Shown here: positions 1-40,997 of the stretch, one piece after another
Position numbering within the stretch: position 1 is the stretch's first letter
How the letters are laid out: each line of letters starts with the position of its first letter
Notes under the pieces: generated by a model
What the model was told of the DNA's origin: nothing
Databases searched by the model: none
What the model saw: the letters and a program-made list of their open reading frames with translations, nothing else
Program-made: the position numbers and the translations under genes
Assembly (NCBI GenBank): GCA_021819225.1
Contig: JAKARU010000001.1
Location: forward strand, 1 to 40,997
Direction of reading: 5' to 3'
DNA length: 40,997 nucleotides
Source of the DNA: Thermoplasmata archaeon
GTDB lineage: Archaea; Thermoplasmatota; Thermoplasmata; Thermoplasmatales; Thermoplasmataceae

Positions 1-1257
1 TTCAAGTTCCCGTTCAGGTATGGTCTTATGCTTATTGCCATTGTTAAGGATCTGCGCTTTCTTGTCCCTGAATATCTGCTTTAACCTTTCCAGAAGTTCG
101 TCCCTCTCAAAGCCCATGAGTTCCTCTCTTTCCTTGTCTGTCAGGTTCATGCCGTATGCAGTCTCAAGGATCATTAATGCTGTCTCCTTCATTGTGTTGT
201 TTGTTATCTTAGCTACGTCCTCTTCCTTAATGCCGTGTTCTTCAGTCTCCAGATACCTTCCCGCTTTGGCGTACTGAACTCTCATGTCATCGATAACAGT
301 TTCAGGAAGAATACCGTGGTTTAGGGTATATTCATGTTCCATATCACCCGTATGGCCCATCCAGAATACTCTATAATCCCTCTTGAGTCCTGTCTTGCTC
401 TCGGCTTGAAGTAGTTGAGTATCAAAATACTTCCTAAGGACATAGGGCCTTTGGATTAATCCCGATCTCCTTATGGTATTTCTTATTAGGTCCCCTATGT
501 TTGTAGTCGCTATGAATGGCACAGACTCCCTTATGGCCTTCTTTGATGGGGTTATAATTGGAGAATCTGCTCTTATTTGCTCGCCATCCTTCATGCGCTC
601 TTCGAGATATAATTTAAGATACCTTGCTCCTTCCTCGCCAATGAATGAGAAATACTCATTATCTTTCTTAGACAGTTCAGATCGTACTACCAATCTGACT
701 GGCACCTTTGTAAATGACACGGTCCCCTCTTTTATCTCCATATCAGGAATATCAGATACCCTTAGGCCATCAGATCCGGTATAATTTCCAAGAACCTGAG
801 GCCTTACACCCGAAAAAGCCATTATGGCGCATGCTAATCTTTCCCTTGAATCGCCTGCGAGGAATATATTCTTAAGCTCATCCTGAGTAGGAACTCTCTC
901 ATTCTTCAGGGATGGCCTTGCGTTGGTCCCTTTTATCTTTACCTTCCTTGTTACAGGAACGCCATGGAAAGCGTACCATGATCTGACTGGCTTAATGAGT
1001 GCTTGAAGGTATGAACCCGATCTTTCTTTCCCGTCATGATTTCTGAATGCACCTATAAAATCCACAAGGAGATCATTCCTTTCCTTGTCGCTGAGATTAA
1101 GAAGCTCCCCCGGCGACTTCTTTATAAATTCGCAGAAAAGGCCGAGCCTCCTGATACTCGTGTCTGCCGTTATTTGTGAGCCTTCCTTTATGTTGTTATA
1201 CCATCGCCTTACATCTGGATCCTTCAAAAGGTCGAAGTGTCTTCGCTTTCCTGTCAT
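1..1257 (-). CDS. Tyrosine recombinase / site-specific integrase (3' end outside window)
   Basis: Translating the minus strand from the ATG at 1257 gives 419 residues with no stop before the window edge, so the C-terminus is missing. The parts of a tyrosine recombinase are in order: SGVRPQVL near residue 150 (first catalytic Arg), VLRKYFDTQ near 274 (box II Arg), then MGHTGDMEHEYT near 300-311, where the His and the final Tyr fit the HxxH/Tyr end of the active site. The first 130 residues fit an N-terminal SAM-like DNA-binding domain. Such enzymes cut and rejoin DNA to integrate or excise plasmids and proviruses. An AT-rich TATA-like stretch (about 1276-1290) lies some 25 bases before the ATG. 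It sits beside a dead transposase and a toxin-antitoxin pair, so it may mark the edge of an integrated element, but no att site can be seen. Confidence 0.85.
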   Translation of the reverse strand, partial: MTGKRRHFDLLKDPDVRRWYNNIKEGSQITADTSIRRLGLFCEFIKKSPGELLNLSDKERNDLLVDFIGAFRNHDGKERSGSYLQALIKPVRSWYAFHGVPVTRKVKIKGTNARPSLKNERVPTQDELKNIFLAGDSRERLACAIMAFSGVRPQVLGNYTGSDGLRVSDIPDMEIKEGTVSFTKVPVRLVVRSELSKKDNEYFSFIGEEGARYLKLYLEERMKDGEQIRADSPIITPSKKAIRESVPFIATTNIGDLIRNTIRRSGLIQRPYVLRKYFDTQLLQAESKTGLKRDYRVFWMGHTGDMEHEYTLNHGILPETVIDDMRVQYAKAGRYLETEEHGIKEEDVAKITNNTMKETALMILETAYGMNLTDKEREELMGFERDELLERLKQIFRDKKAQILNNGNKHKTIPERELE

Positions 1258-36571: not shown

Positions 36572-36892
36572 ATGGATTTAGCCTCTATACTTTCAAATCC
36601 TCTGGTTGAACTTGCCCTGATCTTCGTCGATGGGCTTCTCTTCGGTCTGGGCATCAAGAAAGGTGTCTGGTCTGTGTTGCTCATAGTCTTGGCTGTACTT
36701 CTTGGAGAGTACATAAATTATTCCGTAATCCCGAGTGCATCACTCCAGACATTTGAAACTAACGTTAAGAATCATATTGTGTATGTTATAGACAACATAG
36801 AAAAAATAGTTCCATTTTCAAATATAGGCGCTATAGGAACCAGCCTCATCCTTTTCATAGTTGGCTTCGTTATCGGATACCTCAAGGGGTGA
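36572..36892 (+). CDS. Small membrane protein next to the AAA/ESCRT-like genes
   Basis: The 106-residue protein has three likely membrane segments (about 11-28, 32-48, 85-104) and an external or cytoplasmic loop of about 35 residues. I recognise no family. It is in the same orientation as the AAA locus, ending 45 bases before its first gene, so it may be the membrane anchor of that system, or simply a neighbour with its own promoter. Confidence 0.55.
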   Translation: MDLASILSNPLVELALIFVDGLLFGLGIKKGVWSVLLIVLAVLLGEYINYSVIPSASLQTFETNVKNHIVYVIDNIEKIVPFSNIGAIGTSLILFIVGFVIGYLKG

Positions 36893-36937
36893 TCCATAAA
36901 ATTTTATACCTGTTTTAACCTTATTAATCAGATCGAA

Positions 36938-37525
36938 ATGAAAATCCTCAACAGAAATAAAGACACTGACGTTGAGTCAATGTCCCCTGAAGATCTGGAT
37001 AAATTAGTAATCGAGGCTGAATCAAGCCTGACTATTCTGGAAAAGGAGAGAGATAGGAAGAAAGCCAGGTATGATTCCTTATTCAAGGAGGGAGTTGACG
37101 CGCCAGATTCAAGGAGGAGGAATATCGCCCATGAACTGGAGTCAATAGAGAAGGACATTGCAGGAATAGACAAGAGCATGAAATCATACAGGGACACAGT
37201 AAGGATATTGAATGAGGTGAAGAGGGCAAAAACTACTGCCCAGGATCCGACTGAAAAATTCATTAACAGGATGGACCCTGCAAAGGTAAAGGGTTTATTG
37301 ATTGAAAGCAAGTCAAAAGAAAAACTGAACGAGAGAAAGAGGGAAAACCTGCTTTCGAGCATAGATGATGTATCATCTCTGGACGATGACGAAAAGGGTG
37401 AGGAAAGCAAGTACATGGATATCTTCAGGGAGATGGATAAGAGCAGGGAAAATCTATCACCGACGAAAGGAAAGCAGGAATCTTCAAAGAGTGAGGAAAA
37501 AGATTCAAGCGAAGAAAATGAGTGA
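36938..37525 (+). CDS. Helical coiled-coil protein, possible ESCRT-III-like (1)
   Basis: The 195-residue protein is almost wholly helical. A first long charged helix is at about 17-51, a second at about 57-100 (ELESIEKDIAGIDKSMKSYRDT), a shorter pair at about 104-140 (PTEKFINRMDPAKVKGLL), and an acidic, disordered tail at about 145-195. This order (two long helices, short helices, acidic tail) is that of ESCRT-III/Snf7 proteins, but sequence identity is too low for me to be sure. Its stop overlaps the next gene (an AAA ATPase) by 4 bases, so the two are translated together. A generic coiled-coil regulator of the ATPase is the alternative. Confidence 0.55.
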   Translation: MKILNRNKDTDVESMSPEDLDKLVIEAESSLTILEKERDRKKARYDSLFKEGVDAPDSRRRNIAHELESIEKDIAGIDKSMKSYRDTVRILNEVKRAKTTAQDPTEKFINRMDPAKVKGLLIESKSKEKLNERKRENLLSSIDDVSSLDDDEKGEESKYMDIFREMDKSRENLSPTKGKQESSKSEEKDSSEENE

Positions 37526-38718
37526 TCCAGATGGACGCCGACTACCTTACTATCGAGAATATCAAGAAGGTTCTCACAAATGATATAAGTATGGAGGAAG
37601 AGGCTGAGGGCAGGGGGGATCGGGAGAAATCTCTCGCATATGTGAATTCTATCATCGGTAACCTGAATCTTCTTGCAAAGATTGATAAGAGGGATTCCGT
37701 GAGATATGCCGAACTTGCAGGAAAGTGGGCAGAGAAGAAGAAAAGCCTTACCTCAGGCCAGATAAAAAGGTCGACGGAGAATACATCAAAGAAGGGTAGT
37801 TCAGGGCTCATAGGAAAGATGGAGGGCGAATTCAGGTCAAGGATAGAGGCGCTCATCTCCAAATCTGATGTCAGGTGGGATGAGATAGGGGGACTGGAAG
37901 AGGAGAAAGCCATAATCAAGGAAGCTGTATTCTTTGCACTTGCCTCGCCCAGCAAGAATGTTACGGTTCCAAAGTTAAGGAATATCCTCCTGTTTGGGCC
38001 ACCCGGTACTGGAAAGACAACAATTGCCAAGGCCATAAGCACGAACATAGGAGCCACATTCTTCAATGTCACAATATCTGAGCTCCTCTCCAGGTATGTT
38101 GGTGATTCCGAGAGAATTGTGAGCAGCCTTTATGATGTCGCGAGAGATAAGTCTCCCTCTGTAGTTTTCCTGGATGAAGTCGAATCTCTCGTAAGGAAGC
38201 GGGATGACGGCAACAGGAGTTCCGGCTCTGTTCTGCAGCAATTCCTGGGGCAGCTTGATGGGTTTGGAACAGGCGATCAGTTTGTAATGACTGTTGCTGC
38301 GACAAACGTTCCGTGGGAGCTGGACCAGGCAATTCTTTCCAGATTTGAGAAGAAGATATTTATCGGCCTTCCGGACAGGGAAACAAGGGAGAAGATACTG
38401 CGCATTAACACGGAGATGAAAGGCTATAAGGTCAGGGCAGATTTAAGGCAGATATCGGCAGCCACTGAAAATTTTTCCGGAAGAGACCTGTTCTATGTCT
38501 GTTCCGAGGCAATCAGGAATATGCTCCGGAGGTCTAACAGGGATCTGATGGAGAAAGTCGATTCACTCGTATCTGATGGTGGGAATGATGTCAAGTACAG
38601 AATTTCAGATATCCTGCAGGAAGATTTCAGCTTTGCCCTTTCAAAGGTGAAGCCAGTATCCGATAGATCGAGCCTGGATAGATACTTCGAATGGAAGGAA
38701 CGGTTTGCTAATAATTGA
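37522..38718 (+). CDS. Vps4/CdvC-like AAA ATPase with MIT-like N-terminus
   Basis: The 398-residue protein (GTG 37522, or ATG 37531) has an N-terminal helical region (about 5-75: YVNSIIGNLNLLAKIDKRD...) of the size of an MIT domain and a linker rich in Lys/Ser. One AAA domain follows: Walker A GPPGTGKT at 159-166, Walker B VVFLDE at 214-219, sensor Asn262, and the Arg finger in SRFEKKIFIGLPD. The AATNVPWELDQAI...RFEKKIF stretch is the pattern of the Vps4/katanin (meiotic) clade, and a C-terminal helix (DRYFEWKERF) fits the one in Vps4. It should disassemble or remodel ESCRT-III-like filaments; the neighbours fit. Confidence 0.85.
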   Translation: MIQMDADYLTIENIKKVLTNDISMEEEAEGRGDREKSLAYVNSIIGNLNLLAKIDKRDSVRYAELAGKWAEKKKSLTSGQIKRSTENTSKKGSSGLIGKMEGEFRSRIEALISKSDVRWDEIGGLEEEKAIIKEAVFFALASPSKNVTVPKLRNILLFGPPGTGKTTIAKAISTNIGATFFNVTISELLSRYVGDSERIVSSLYDVARDKSPSVVFLDEVESLVRKRDDGNRSSGSVLQQFLGQLDGFGTGDQFVMTVAATNVPWELDQAILSRFEKKIFIGLPDRETREKILRINTEMKGYKVRADLRQISAATENFSGRDLFYVCSEAIRNMLRRSNRDLMEKVDSLVSDGGNDVKYRISDILQEDFSFALSKVKPVSDRSSLDRYFEWKERFANN

Positions 38719-38727
38719 GGGATAATA

Positions 38728-39366
38728 ATGGCTACGGATATTGATGACATTATCAGGAAGATGATGAAAAGTTCCCCATCCAGGGATTTCAAGCAGGAAT
38801 GGGCAATGAACCTTGCAGGACTGTGGGGCAGGTTTGGGTCAAAAAAATTCCTGGGCAAGAAAGGAATGCAGACTGTAAAGAAGTCCATGCAGGACACCTA
38901 CGTCATGATGAGCATGGAATCTGACAGGATCAGGAAGCTGAAGGATGAAATTAAAAAGAGCAATCATGGTGATGATGAAATGGACAAGGTCAAGATCGAG
39001 AGGGCGAGTGATCAGCTTGCAGTCTCTGAGAGTAAATTTTCAGACCTTCATCTCAGGTATAAGTTTCTTTCAACAATATATGCCATCCAGGAACTATCAT
39101 CCGGTAGCAAGTTCATGAAGAAGATTGATGCGATAATGAAGAACAGGAAGAACATGGAGATTTTGCAGAGGGAAACAAAAGCTTCAATAATGGAAACGAA
39201 AGAGATTGAACGTAACCTCGATACGATAGACACCTACCTTGATGCGATGAAGGACGGGCATTCCACTGATAGAAGGGACATCCAGGCTGATCTTGCCGAG
39301 AAAATCCAGGAAAAGGAGGAGAAGGATCAGGAAGAGGATGAAAATGGGGACGTGATGTTATCATGA
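38728..39366 (+). CDS. Helical protein, possible ESCRT-III-like (2)
   Basis: The 212-residue protein has a basic, Trp/Gly-containing N-terminal part (about 20-55: EWAMNLAGLWGRFGSKKFLG) and long helices at about 47-77, 85-125 and 128-180. A strongly acidic tail follows (KEEKDQEEDENGD). A basic amphipathic start followed by helices and an acidic end is the order of membrane-binding ESCRT-III proteins. No family can be named from the sequence alone. It begins 9 bases after the first AAA ATPase and overlaps the next gene by 4 bases. Confidence 0.55.
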   Translation: MATDIDDIIRKMMKSSPSRDFKQEWAMNLAGLWGRFGSKKFLGKKGMQTVKKSMQDTYVMMSMESDRIRKLKDEIKKSNHGDDEMDKVKIERASDQLAVSESKFSDLHLRYKFLSTIYAIQELSSGSKFMKKIDAIMKNRKNMEILQRETKASIMETKEIERNLDTIDTYLDAMKDGHSTDRRDIQADLAEKIQEKEEKDQEEDENGDVMLS

Positions 39367-39938
39367 GCTTATTGAACAGGAAGTCCAGGGAAGAACTTGA
39401 AATTGAGACGCAGATGAATATCCAGATGCTAAAGAAGAAATCGGAGAATCACGCCAGGCAGTGTGACACAATGGCGGAAAAGTATGAGAAGAAGTCAAAG
39501 GAGGCCGCAGGGATAGGAAATGGAAACCTGAGCAAGGTATTCTCGGAAAAAGCAAGGGCATTGCGTGACCAGGCCTCAAAGATAAGGTCCTTCATTCTTG
39601 TAGTTGAGGACATGGAGATGATGAAGGATCAGTCTTCCGTGATGGGCAGTTTTTCAGATGCCATGAAGAGTTTTGTCAAGACAATGTCAAAGGGCCAGGT
39701 CAGTCCTGCATGGATGAGCCAGATGGAAGGAGAGCTGGACAAGGCCATTGCCGAGAGTGAAAGGGTCGGGGACCTGTTCGGCGGTTTACTGGATGATGTG
39801 GGACAGAATGTGCCACCATCCATGAAGAATGACAGCCCAGGGGAACCCGCAGAGGTGTCAAGAGATATAGAAAACATGGAGAAGAGGCTCCGGGAAAGGA
39901 TGAAATCAATAGAAGACGACAGGGAAAAGACGGAATAG
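39363..39938 (+). CDS. ESCRT-III (Snf7/CHMP)-like protein (3)
   Basis: The 191-residue protein is the best ESCRT-III candidate here. A long helix (about 10-50) leads into NLSKVFSEKARALRDQASK and FILVVEDMEMM, then SSVMGSFSDAMKSFVKTMSK, MEGELDKAIAES and VGDLFGGLLDD. This spacing resembles the helix 2-4 region of CHMP1/CHMP2-type proteins, where the Arg-rich helix is followed by a sampling of Met-rich helices. The C-terminus (168-187: DIENMEKRLRERMKSIEDD) is helical with an RL pair and resembles, one residue out of register, the MIT-binding MIM1 motif. It starts 4 bases inside the previous gene, and the second AAA gene follows. Confidence 0.62.
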   Translation: MSLLNRKSREELEIETQMNIQMLKKKSENHARQCDTMAEKYEKKSKEAAGIGNGNLSKVFSEKARALRDQASKIRSFILVVEDMEMMKDQSSVMGSFSDAMKSFVKTMSKGQVSPAWMSQMEGELDKAIAESERVGDLFGGLLDDVGQNVPPSMKNDSPGEPAEVSRDIENMEKRLRERMKSIEDDREKTE

Positions 39939-39984
39939 GAACTGGAAATGCATAATCTTAAACTGTTTAGGTGCATTCAAAATC

Positions 39985-40997
39985 ATGAATCCTGACGAAG
40001 AGAGGAGGTTTGTATCCGAGATTCAGGCTCTGGTAGAAGAGGCGATGTCCATGGAGTCTTCTGATCCCCATGGTGCGGCCACAAAGTATCTTGAAATATC
40101 AAGAAAAATCCTTGATGGATCATCATCAATGAATCCGGACCAGAAGAAGAAGTTCATGAAGATTGCAGACACATCCCTGAACAGGCGGGATGAGATCACG
40201 AGAAAGATGCCGGTGCCTAACCGGGCAGGAGATGATAGGCAACCCGCAGCAAAGGTACCAGCAGGTCAATCCCAAAAAATTGAGAAGTATGGTCCTGGAA
40301 CAGAATTCATTGTCGATCTGCATCCAGAGATCTATGAAACCACCTTTGATGATATAGCAGGCCTTGACGAAGTCAAGGATACCATAATCCGCCAGGTGAT
40401 CAAGGCCAGGGAAAGGCCTGATCTTGCAAGGAAATATGGAATTACTGGCAGGAACATATTTCTATTCGGACCACCTGGAACTGGAAAAACCAGCATCGCT
40501 CAGGCGATATCTCACGAGATTTCCTATCCCATGGTCACGGTTACACCATCATATATCCTGGATAACAGGTTTGGAGCCTTCGAGAAGAATATCAGGAGCC
40601 TTTTTGAGGAATCCCTTACCCACGCACCCATAATAATCTTCTTTGATGAGTTCGAGTCACTTGCTCCCAGGAGATCTTCAATCAATTCATCATATATGAA
40701 GAGGGGGGTGCCAGAGATGCTCCGGCAGATGACTGATCTCAGGAAGAGGAACGATGGCCAGGTAATACTGATAGCTGCGACAAACAATCCATGGGATGTT
40801 GATGAAGCCATGCTGAATCCTGAGAGATTCGATACAAGGATATTCATTCCGCCACCTGACCAGAAGTCAAGATCCGAGATTTTCAGGATTTTTCTGAAGG
40901 ATCTTGAATTGAGCGATGGTATAGACTATGAAGAACTTGGAGTCATTTCAGAGGGATTCTCTGCTGCTGACATCAAGTATGTCTGCAGGACGGCAGC
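39985..40997 (+). CDS. Second Vps4/CdvC-like AAA ATPase with MIT-like domain (3' end outside window)
   Basis: The visible 337 residues have a three-helix MIT-like domain at 8-72 (EIQALVEEAMSMESSDPHGAATKYLEISRKIL), a Pro/Gln linker, and the AAA domain: GLDEVKDTI, Walker A GPPGTGKT at 162-169, Walker B IIIFFDE at 216-222, and AATNNPWDVDEAM with Arg in NPERFD. The last feature is closer to Cdc48/SAMP-type AAA domains than to the Vps4 copy upstream, so the two paralogs differ. An AT-rich element (AATCTTAAAC, about 39955) before the ATG could be its own promoter. It runs off the window's right edge. Confidence 0.82.
   Translation, partial: MNPDEERRFVSEIQALVEEAMSMESSDPHGAATKYLEISRKILDGSSSMNPDQKKKFMKIADTSLNRRDEITRKMPVPNRAGDDRQPAAKVPAGQSQKIEKYGPGTEFIVDLHPEIYETTFDDIAGLDEVKDTIIRQVIKARERPDLARKYGITGRNIFLFGPPGTGKTSIAQAISHEISYPMVTVTPSYILDNRFGAFEKNIRSLFEESLTHAPIIIFFDEFESLAPRRSSINSSYMKRGVPEMLRQMTDLRKRNDGQVILIAATNNPWDVDEAMLNPERFDTRIFIPPPDQKSRSEIFRIFLKDLELSDGIDYEELGVISEGFSAADIKYVCRTA

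Follow-up and report, generated by a model that had tools for sequence, protein, structure and literature searches.

A gene cluster of a Cuniculiplasma relative that probably merges two ESCRT lineages in one membrane-remodelling operon

Do two AAA ATPases and three small helical proteins, encoded in a row by an archaeon of the Thermoplasmatales, make up a single membrane-remodelling system, and from which lineages do its parts derive? The question is raised by contig JAKARU010000001.1 (assembly GCA_021819225.1), of which positions 1 to 40,997 were analysed; this whole stretch of 40,997 nucleotides is called the window. Its tail (36572–40997) consists of six head-to-tail genes on the + strand, w1 to w6, the last of which runs off the end of the window. 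The source organism is a relative of Cuniculiplasma, among a group of acidophilic archaea. The first-pass annotation of the window saw in these genes a candidate divergent Cdv-like locus related to the endosomal sorting complex required for transport (ESCRT). We consider it probable, from comparisons of sequence and gene order, that they are part of an ESCRT-type membrane-remodelling operon in which two ESCRT lineages have been merged, working by the mechanism proposed below and serving outward budding or membrane repair.

The two ATPases and their helical partners

Both ATPases match the Pfam AAA family (w3 at 1.2e-35, w6 at 7.6e-32), as first annotated, and both contain the motif GPPGTGKT; inspection of the translations by eye shows a Walker B DE as well. 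A maximum-likelihood tree of 63 AAA domains puts ten w3 rows in one group (98/92), which is joined to ten Vps4 proteins of the main euryarchaeal clade (100/98). The w6 proteins, V3 (a third Vps4 of related genomes) and the Thermoplasma-type Vps4 (rows that we take to be those of T. acidophilum and T. volcanium) fall together in another clade (100/100), and the Cdc48/PAN rows form a group of their own (99/98). Both w3 and w6 are classed as Vps4-type by this placement with Vps4 rather than with Cdc48. Their positions in separate clades rule out a recent duplication of one Vps4, and the initial view of the doubled ATPases as one duplicated system has to be given up, the two not being near-duplicates. 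The w6 label does not denote a clean group: only six strict w6 proteins form a clade, and the ATPase at the w6 position of locus L062 and the so-called w6 of L071 fall with V-type rows of genus g8. At pore loop 1, the residue before F-G is R or K in each of the six strict w6 proteins and W or Y in proteins of V3 type.

The N-terminal helical domains of the ATPases pair by lineage in profile comparisons, with the same split as in the AAA tree: w6 with V3 gives 96.1%, V3 with Pfam-positive MIT rows 45.2% and w3 with the main clade 73.2%. Compared directly with the MIT rows, w6 gives 5.9% and w3 2.9%.

In the main-clade euryarchaeal Vps4 loci, the first and second ESCRT-III-like genes are here called M1 and M2; in Methanococcales, M1 lies upstream of Vps4. 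The w2 protein is homologous to M1, as judged from pairwise and profile alignments. BLASTP of w2 against the M1 gene L127:6353-6994 gives an E-value of 4e-6, hhalign of w2 with M1 gives 95.5% (E 1.6e-8 over 156 columns; reversed control 0.6%), and the w2 profile matches M1 in nine of nine main-clade loci (1.5e-10 to 3.8e-6; L125 and L126 are near-copies). When an M1 plus M2 profile is run against 177,635 PDB sequences, the two best matches are CdvB (E 0.011) and CdvB2 (0.016), both marginal, and it is solely through M1 and M2 that w2 and w4 are tied to the Snf7 superfamily.

The w5 protein matches Pfam Snf7 with an E-value of 0.0011 and 19.1 bits, below the curated cut-off of 27.3. It aligns with family D, a second ESCRT-III family of these archaea (hhalign 96.8%, E 2.4e-10), the profile of which matches human CHMP3 at 9.1e-5. 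Relatives of D in loci L216 and L208 score over the Snf7 cut-off (L216 at 5.9e-11), although the D protein of G001, the nearest relative genome examined, has no Snf7 match. A single phmmer search with the L216 ESCRT-III protein returned nothing. Through this chain of profiles, from w5 to D to CHMP3, w5 is classed as a Snf7/ESCRT-III relative.

A MIM1-like pattern, with the consensus loosened at several positions, was scanned for in the last 45 residues of the helical proteins. It is present in 10 of 15 w5-type proteins (0.16 expected from shuffles), and elsewhere in one of 15 w2 proteins and in none of the D (12), w4 (25), M1 (12) and M2 (12) proteins. The five w5-type proteins without it belong to L063, L067, L069 (one residue off), L075 and L125. 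Genomes G053, G057 and G058, which have no w6 after w5, encode a w5 of 179 residues that does not carry the motif (by eye in G057); the joint loss of w6 and the w5 motif in these close relatives is probably one event. A strict rule, by which the tail motif of w5 would persist only in the presence of a following w6, fits Cuniculiplasma and was discarded, being broken by G048 and by the g8 genomes, which carry a V-type Vps4.

Taken together, w2 and w3 are identified by sequence as the main euryarchaeal ESCRT lineage, an M1-like protein with its Vps4, and w5 and w6 as the Thermoplasmata lineage, a Snf7-type protein with its Vps4. The two ESCRT-III types can share a locus outside the Thermoplasmatales as well, since in an Archaeoglobus metagenome-assembled genome a Snf7-type gene (L125:18901-19467; w5 profile 1.5e-21, D profile 2.6e-22) lies about 8 kb downstream of the main-clade Vps4.

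Several results weigh against this assignment. The tree does not settle how the two Vps4 clades stand to Cdc48 and to the single TACK row, and Vps4 does not come out as one clade. The Pfam MIT model matches none of w3, w6 and V3; it also misses the main-clade Vps4 proteins to which it was applied. Run against the PDB, the profiles of w2, w4 and w5 return no ESCRT-III chain, and w2 and w4 have no Snf7 match in Pfam. A six-frame scan with the w2 profile over four genomes of the main clade (G118–G121) gave nothing at E-values up to 10, even though G120 carries M1. Neither w2 nor w4 aligns with w5, and a relationship of the two to w5 or D was not seen. The strict MIM1 motif is absent from 12 of 12 D proteins, so that docking of V3 to D is an assumption. 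Strict pairing of w5 with w6 is weakened by G048, where the w5-type protein has the motif and no w6 occurs in the following 18 kb read. Finally, w4 and M2 compared directly by hhalign give 0.3%, and BLASTP of w4 against M1 finds nothing.

For w4, these last results leave room for the possibility, which deserves some weight but which we favour less, that it is an unrelated coiled-coil adaptor specific to the locus: direct profile comparisons tie the protein to none of w5, M1 and M2, and it has an unusual conserved N-terminal block and an acidic C-terminus. However, family X, from three g8 genomes, bridges the two sides. It matches w4 with 93.1% (88.5% in the other direction; reversed control 2.2%) and M2 with 91.7% (reversed control 0.1%). 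In L074, L075 and L076 its gene immediately precedes the one of w5 type; in L076 (genome G082), with w3 on its other side, X occupies the slot of w4. In addition, the w4 profile has M1 genes as its best matches among main-clade open reading frames (E down to 1.7e-6, composition bias high) and none in the reversed set. We take w4 to be probably an M2-type partner. All three helical proteins had at first been proposed as ESCRT-III; the proposal is supported for w5, which is Snf7-like, and for w2 as an M1 homologue, and w4 is linked only through the bridging family X. The g8 M2-like proteins (L074:10526-11137, L075:10489-11361 and L076:9535-10161) have an N-terminal hydrophobic segment by eye, which w4 does not have.

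Gene order, conservation and extent of the cluster

The reading frames and junctions are as originally described. The genes w2 and w3 overlap by 4 bases, w3 and w4 are 9 bases apart, w4 and w5 again overlap by 4 bases, and a gap of 46 bases separates w5 from w6. The six genes are listed in Table 1.

Table 1. Genes of the cluster in the window and the assignment of their products.
Gene	Coordinates	Strand	Product
w1	36572-36892	+	106-residue membrane protein; three hydrophobic segments by eye
w2	36938-37525	+	195-residue helical protein; M1 homologue
w3	37522-38718	+	398-residue Vps4-type AAA ATPase, main euryarchaeal clade; own N-terminal helical domain
w4	38728-39366	+	212-residue helical protein, fast-evolving; link to M2 only via family X
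w5	39363-39938	+	191-residue Snf7/ESCRT-III-type protein; C-terminal MIM1-like motif EKRLRERMKSI
w6	39985-40997 (window end)	+	Vps4-type AAA ATPase, Thermoplasmata clade; 337 residues in the window

Conservation was counted over 117 genomes of the order. Matches to w2, w3 and w4 occur in 14 genomes each (w3 at E-values up to 1e-60), w5 in 21, where some of the matches are D-type genes, D in 33 and the DO-GTPase described below in 18 (at E-values up to 1e-10). A survey of gene order in relatives, as the first-pass annotation had suggested, bears out the arrangement: w2, w3, w4 and w5 follow one another without interruption on one strand in all 11 genomes whose contig carries the four. In eight of these (G001, G049, G050, G052, G054, G056, G059 and G072), w1 stands before the four genes and a Vps4 in the w6 position after them; the other three are G053, G058 and G086. 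The w6 of G052 is divergent, and in G086 w1 and a w6-like gene are placed elsewhere in the cluster. Where w6 is missing after w5 (G053, G057 and G058), w5 and the upstream genes are retained. The w4 reading frame is maintained down to 21–30% identity, which, with the preserved order of w2 to w5, indicates that the genes are real. In the metagenome-assembled genome G059, w6 is split over two reading frames (L068:4784-5982), by decay or by an assembly error.

The nearest relative, G001, has 81% of the sampled 31-letter words of the window in common with it, and its full-length counterpart of w6 has 389 residues. The number of nonsynonymous substitutions per site (dN) over w1 to w6 is 0.14–0.33; the synonymous value (dS) was returned as -1 and taken as saturated. 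Named relatives of w2 and w4 come from Cuniculiplasma sp. SKW3 and SKW4. In a scan of genome contigs, the closest named contig belongs to Cuniculiplasma sp. KMA_Bin18, with a w3 that is 76% identical; it is the one clear w3 orthologue among the best 80 of 427 relatives. Upstream of w1, the gene order in G049 is a mutase B subunit, an ArgK-like GTPase and Hsp20; this agrees with the tags CSP5_0925 and CSP5_0928 (PMC7285479), and G049 is probably C. divulgatum S5. The w1 protein has no match in Pfam or NCBIfam. Its family also occurs near Vps4 and ESCRT-III in Thermoplasma-type loci, and the w1 profile has matches in loci of genera g1, g2, g5, g8, g9, g12, g14 and g15.

Within genera the cluster is mostly all-or-none, being present in one of four g3, one of four g5 and one of three g9 genomes, several of which are incomplete. 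A second g5 genome, G073, has w1 to w4, V3 and p276, its contig stopping at that point.

The cluster continues past the window, as read from the genes that follow w6 in G001; the ESCRT-type five-gene set first described is real, and the limits drawn for it by the window are not. The additional genes of the relatives encode D, V3, the winged-helix protein p622, a HEAT-repeat protein, p276, a membrane DO-GTPase and GAP1. In G001, G056 and G072, a stretch of about 17 kb contains w1 to w6 and all of these, V3 and p276 being on the upstream side in G072; in G059 the same start can be followed as far as the HEAT gene, at the contig end. In G001 the count reaches three Vps4 and four proteins that are ESCRT-III or ESCRT-III-like, besides no fewer than four accessory genes. 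In genus g8, runs on one strand combine the same elements: G082 (L076:5754-14173) has p622, w2, w3, X, a w5-type gene, the GTPase and GAP1, with most of the gene ends of this seven-gene run overlapping or within 4 bases of each other, and G079 (L074:3465-11137) has X, a w5-type gene, an arCOG08177-like gene, p622, w2, the GTPase and GAP1. In G083, the GTPase and GAP1 are in opposite orientation.

The DO-GTPase has N-terminal hydrophobic segments and scores over the DO-GTPase2 cut-off of 27 in G001 (35.7 bits, 9.1e-9) and in G079 (37.6 bits, 2.5e-9). GAP1 adjoins it, with GAP1-N2 matches of 1.1e-4, 4.9e-4, 0.0058 and, in G001, 0.044, all under the cut-off. Most of the cluster-bearing archaea have the GTPase module, either near the cluster or elsewhere in the genome. 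Over the 117 genomes, which are not independent, co-occurrence of w3 and the GTPase is 13/1/5/98 (p 1.9e-12), and it is on this co-occurrence and on neighbourhood that the tie of the GTPase to the ESCRT cluster rests. Genomes G049, G050 and G054 have an extra DO-GTPase-like protein of 798 residues between D and the HEAT gene (L204:10959-13355 on the - strand, L205 and L206), which matches Pfam DO-GTPase1 at 5.5e-4, below the cut-off.

The p622 profile matches the gene just upstream of M1 in nine of nine main-clade loci (1.6e-26 to 8.2e-19). By eye, the protein is made up of helical, coiled-coil, central and winged-helix parts, in agreement with arCOG09748 as described in PMC10936438; arCOG names are used here on the basis of that description and of gene position, not of arCOG records. 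Among 400 genomes of the class, p622 occurs in 13 of the family and in two others, and in G001 it lies about 8 kb downstream of w6. Since this sample of the class may not include every one of the 117 genomes of the order, p-values for the co-occurrence of p622 are disregarded. A 165-residue gene of L074 matches the gene before the p622 counterpart in seven of seven Methanococcales loci (3.4e-18 to 1.3e-14), which fits arCOG08177; such a gene is seen in the g8 loci L074 and L075. The HEAT protein also has a beta-rich domain by eye. An adaptin likeness was considered for it and is no more than speculation, the matches (AP-1 beta 0.036, AP-2 beta 0.074) being weak and ranking behind designed repeat proteins.

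Two further features were observed. Between w6 and D, G001 has genes for an ABC transporter ATPase, two membrane proteins and a MarR/HxlR-like regulator (L009:1430-4035); this insert is also present in G056 and G059, and not in G072. At the opposite end of the window (1-1257, - strand) is an open-ended gene that resembles a tyrosine recombinase, of XerC/D type by eye.

Comparison with known systems

The cluster resembles the main-clade euryarchaeal ESCRT of Methanococcales and others (PMC10936438) in that w3 goes with its Vps4 and w2 with its M1, that p622 is similar to arCOG09748, and that g8 has an arCOG08177-like gene beside p622. Many main-clade loci, as described there, have a membrane kinase and a phosphatase, in place of which the membrane DO-GTPase and GAP1 are found here; no kinase or phosphatase was present among 20 neighbouring or homologous proteins scanned with Pfam. 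A second difference is the presence of another Vps4 lineage and of Snf7-type genes in the same operon.

According to PMC10936438, the ESCRT of Thermoplasmata is minimal after reduction, consisting of Vps4, ESCRT-III and arCOG07400. The cluster shares with it the Vps4 clade of w6 and V3, the ESCRT-III type of w5 and D and the w1 family, but has many more components (arCOG07400 itself was not searched for). With the Cdv system of TACK archaea (CdvA, CdvB, CdvC) it has the logic of ESCRT-III plus Vps4 in common; it differs in having Vps4 of other clades and a match to the FtsZ family. The CdvC equivalog cut-off of 650 bits is not reached by w3 (161.9) or w6 (143.3), and the label of a Cdv-type locus given at first does not hold on this score, although no search aimed at CdvA was made.

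The DO-GTPase and GAP1 systems of PMC7159879 have the same GTPase domain, N-terminal hydrophobic segments and a GAP1-N2-like partner. Here they are coupled to ESCRT genes, whereas the word ESCRT is absent from the main text of that paper. A distant precedent is the DO-GTPase reported beside the bacterial pspFABC operon (PMC11237479). Literature searches on ESCRT and DO-GTPases of Thermoplasmata, Thermoplasmatales or Cuniculiplasma brought up no title or abstract describing the locus; its genes may be tabulated elsewhere. The tags CSP5_0929 and CSP5_093x, guessed from neighbours, were not found in the main text of the C. divulgatum proteome paper (PMC7285479).

Proposed mechanism and role

In the mechanism that we propose, w1 and the membrane GTPase would mark a site, to which the winged-helix and HEAT proteins would recruit ESCRT-III. 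On the inner face of the membrane two kinds of polymer may form, one of the w2/w4 type and one of the w5/D type, and each Vps4 would pull out subunits of its own kind: w3 would act on w2/w4, and w6 or V3, through its MIT-like domain, on the tails of w5 or D. GTP hydrolysis would control assembly. The predicted output is outward budding and scission, by which wall-less cells dividing with FtsZ would release vesicles or repair their membrane.

A more far-reaching proposal, which we put forward tentatively and regard as rather unlikely in its full form, is a GTP-gated ESCRT machine in which the membrane-anchored DO-GTPase, GAP1 and HEAT proteins would select cargo or sites, and two independently evolved kinds of ESCRT-III polymer with two or three dedicated Vps4 motors would bud and cut the membrane.

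The merging of two lineages in one operon has to be set against the possibility that history has left independent units side by side, with w2 to w4 forming one complex, w5 and w6 another, and the GTPase genes serving something else. The two halves differ in ancestry in the tree, and w6 can be gone after w5 while the rest remains, as in G053, G057 and G058. The GTPase genes also speak for separate units: in G049 the set of D, HEAT, GAP1, GTPase and p622 lies 228 kb from w1 to w6, and in G050, G052, G053, G054 and G058 the GTPase set is on other contigs. On the other hand, genes of both lineages are interleaved in w2 to w5, with overlaps of 4 bases, and this stretch is unbroken in every one of the 11 genomes, the runs of G082 and G079 contain ESCRT genes of both lineages together with the GTPase and GAP1, and the cluster is present or absent as a block in g3, g5 and g9. 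We regard independent units as unlikely.

Less probable again is a Cdv-like division machine, in which the doubled ATPases and ESCRT-III-like proteins would cut the cell as in Sulfolobus; a part in division had been among the roles first suggested. ESCRT-III plus Vps4 is the division core of TACK archaea, and PMC10936438 proposes a division role for the Thermoplasmata ESCRT where FtsZ is missing. However, an FtsZ-family match is present in 14 of 14 genomes with w3 (92 of the 117 genomes, all genera together, pass the curated cut-off), SepF in all eight genomes examined for it, of which six carry the cluster, and FtsZ is reported to be expressed in C. divulgatum (PMC7285479). The FtsZ of Cuniculiplasma (g1) has best E-values of 4.4e-85 to 5.0e-93, lower-scoring than the values of about 1e-102 to 1e-119 in most other genera of the family, and may be diverged, which would favour a division role for the cluster. 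Against such a role, w2, w3, w4, the GTPase and D were not found in FtsZ-bearing relatives (three of four g3, two of four g5 and two of three g9 genomes, some of them incomplete), and neither w3 nor w6 reaches the CdvC cut-off. Since the cluster is dispensable in FtsZ-bearing cells, and relatives without it keep FtsZ, a primary role in division appears unlikely, and we infer that outward budding, vesicle release or membrane repair is likelier.

An anti-virus conflict system appears the least probable of all: the DO-GTPase and GAP1 domains do occur in the NTP-dependent conflict systems of PMC7159879, the ATPases have PADLOC matches to the defence ATPase IetA (1e-31 and 1.6e-36) and presence across genomes is patchy, but the likeness to IetA is general AAA similarity, with CDC48 and CdvC models scoring higher and the tree placing both ATPases with Vps4, Pfam scans of the same 20 proteins found no effector domain, and there was no match to a viral contig or plasmid (one query each, close relatives only).

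If two ESCRT lineages have indeed been merged here, one family of the Thermoplasmatales has a complex system, in contrast to the view in PMC10936438 that Thermoplasmata keep only a reduced ESCRT. Two Vps4 clades interleaved in one operon matter for reconstructing how ESCRT evolved and for the question of how pairings of motor and polymer stay apart. The cluster is also a candidate for the control of an ESCRT machine by a GTPase. Were the GTP-gated machine to be real, the GTPase would stand in for the kinase and phosphatase of the main-clade loci, and the whole would parallel, in an archaeon, the way in which eukaryotic coats combine a small GTPase with adaptors, having arisen by the merger of two ESCRT lineages. 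As cultivable, wall-less cells with FtsZ, these organisms would allow a test of whether archaeal ESCRT can have a role other than division.

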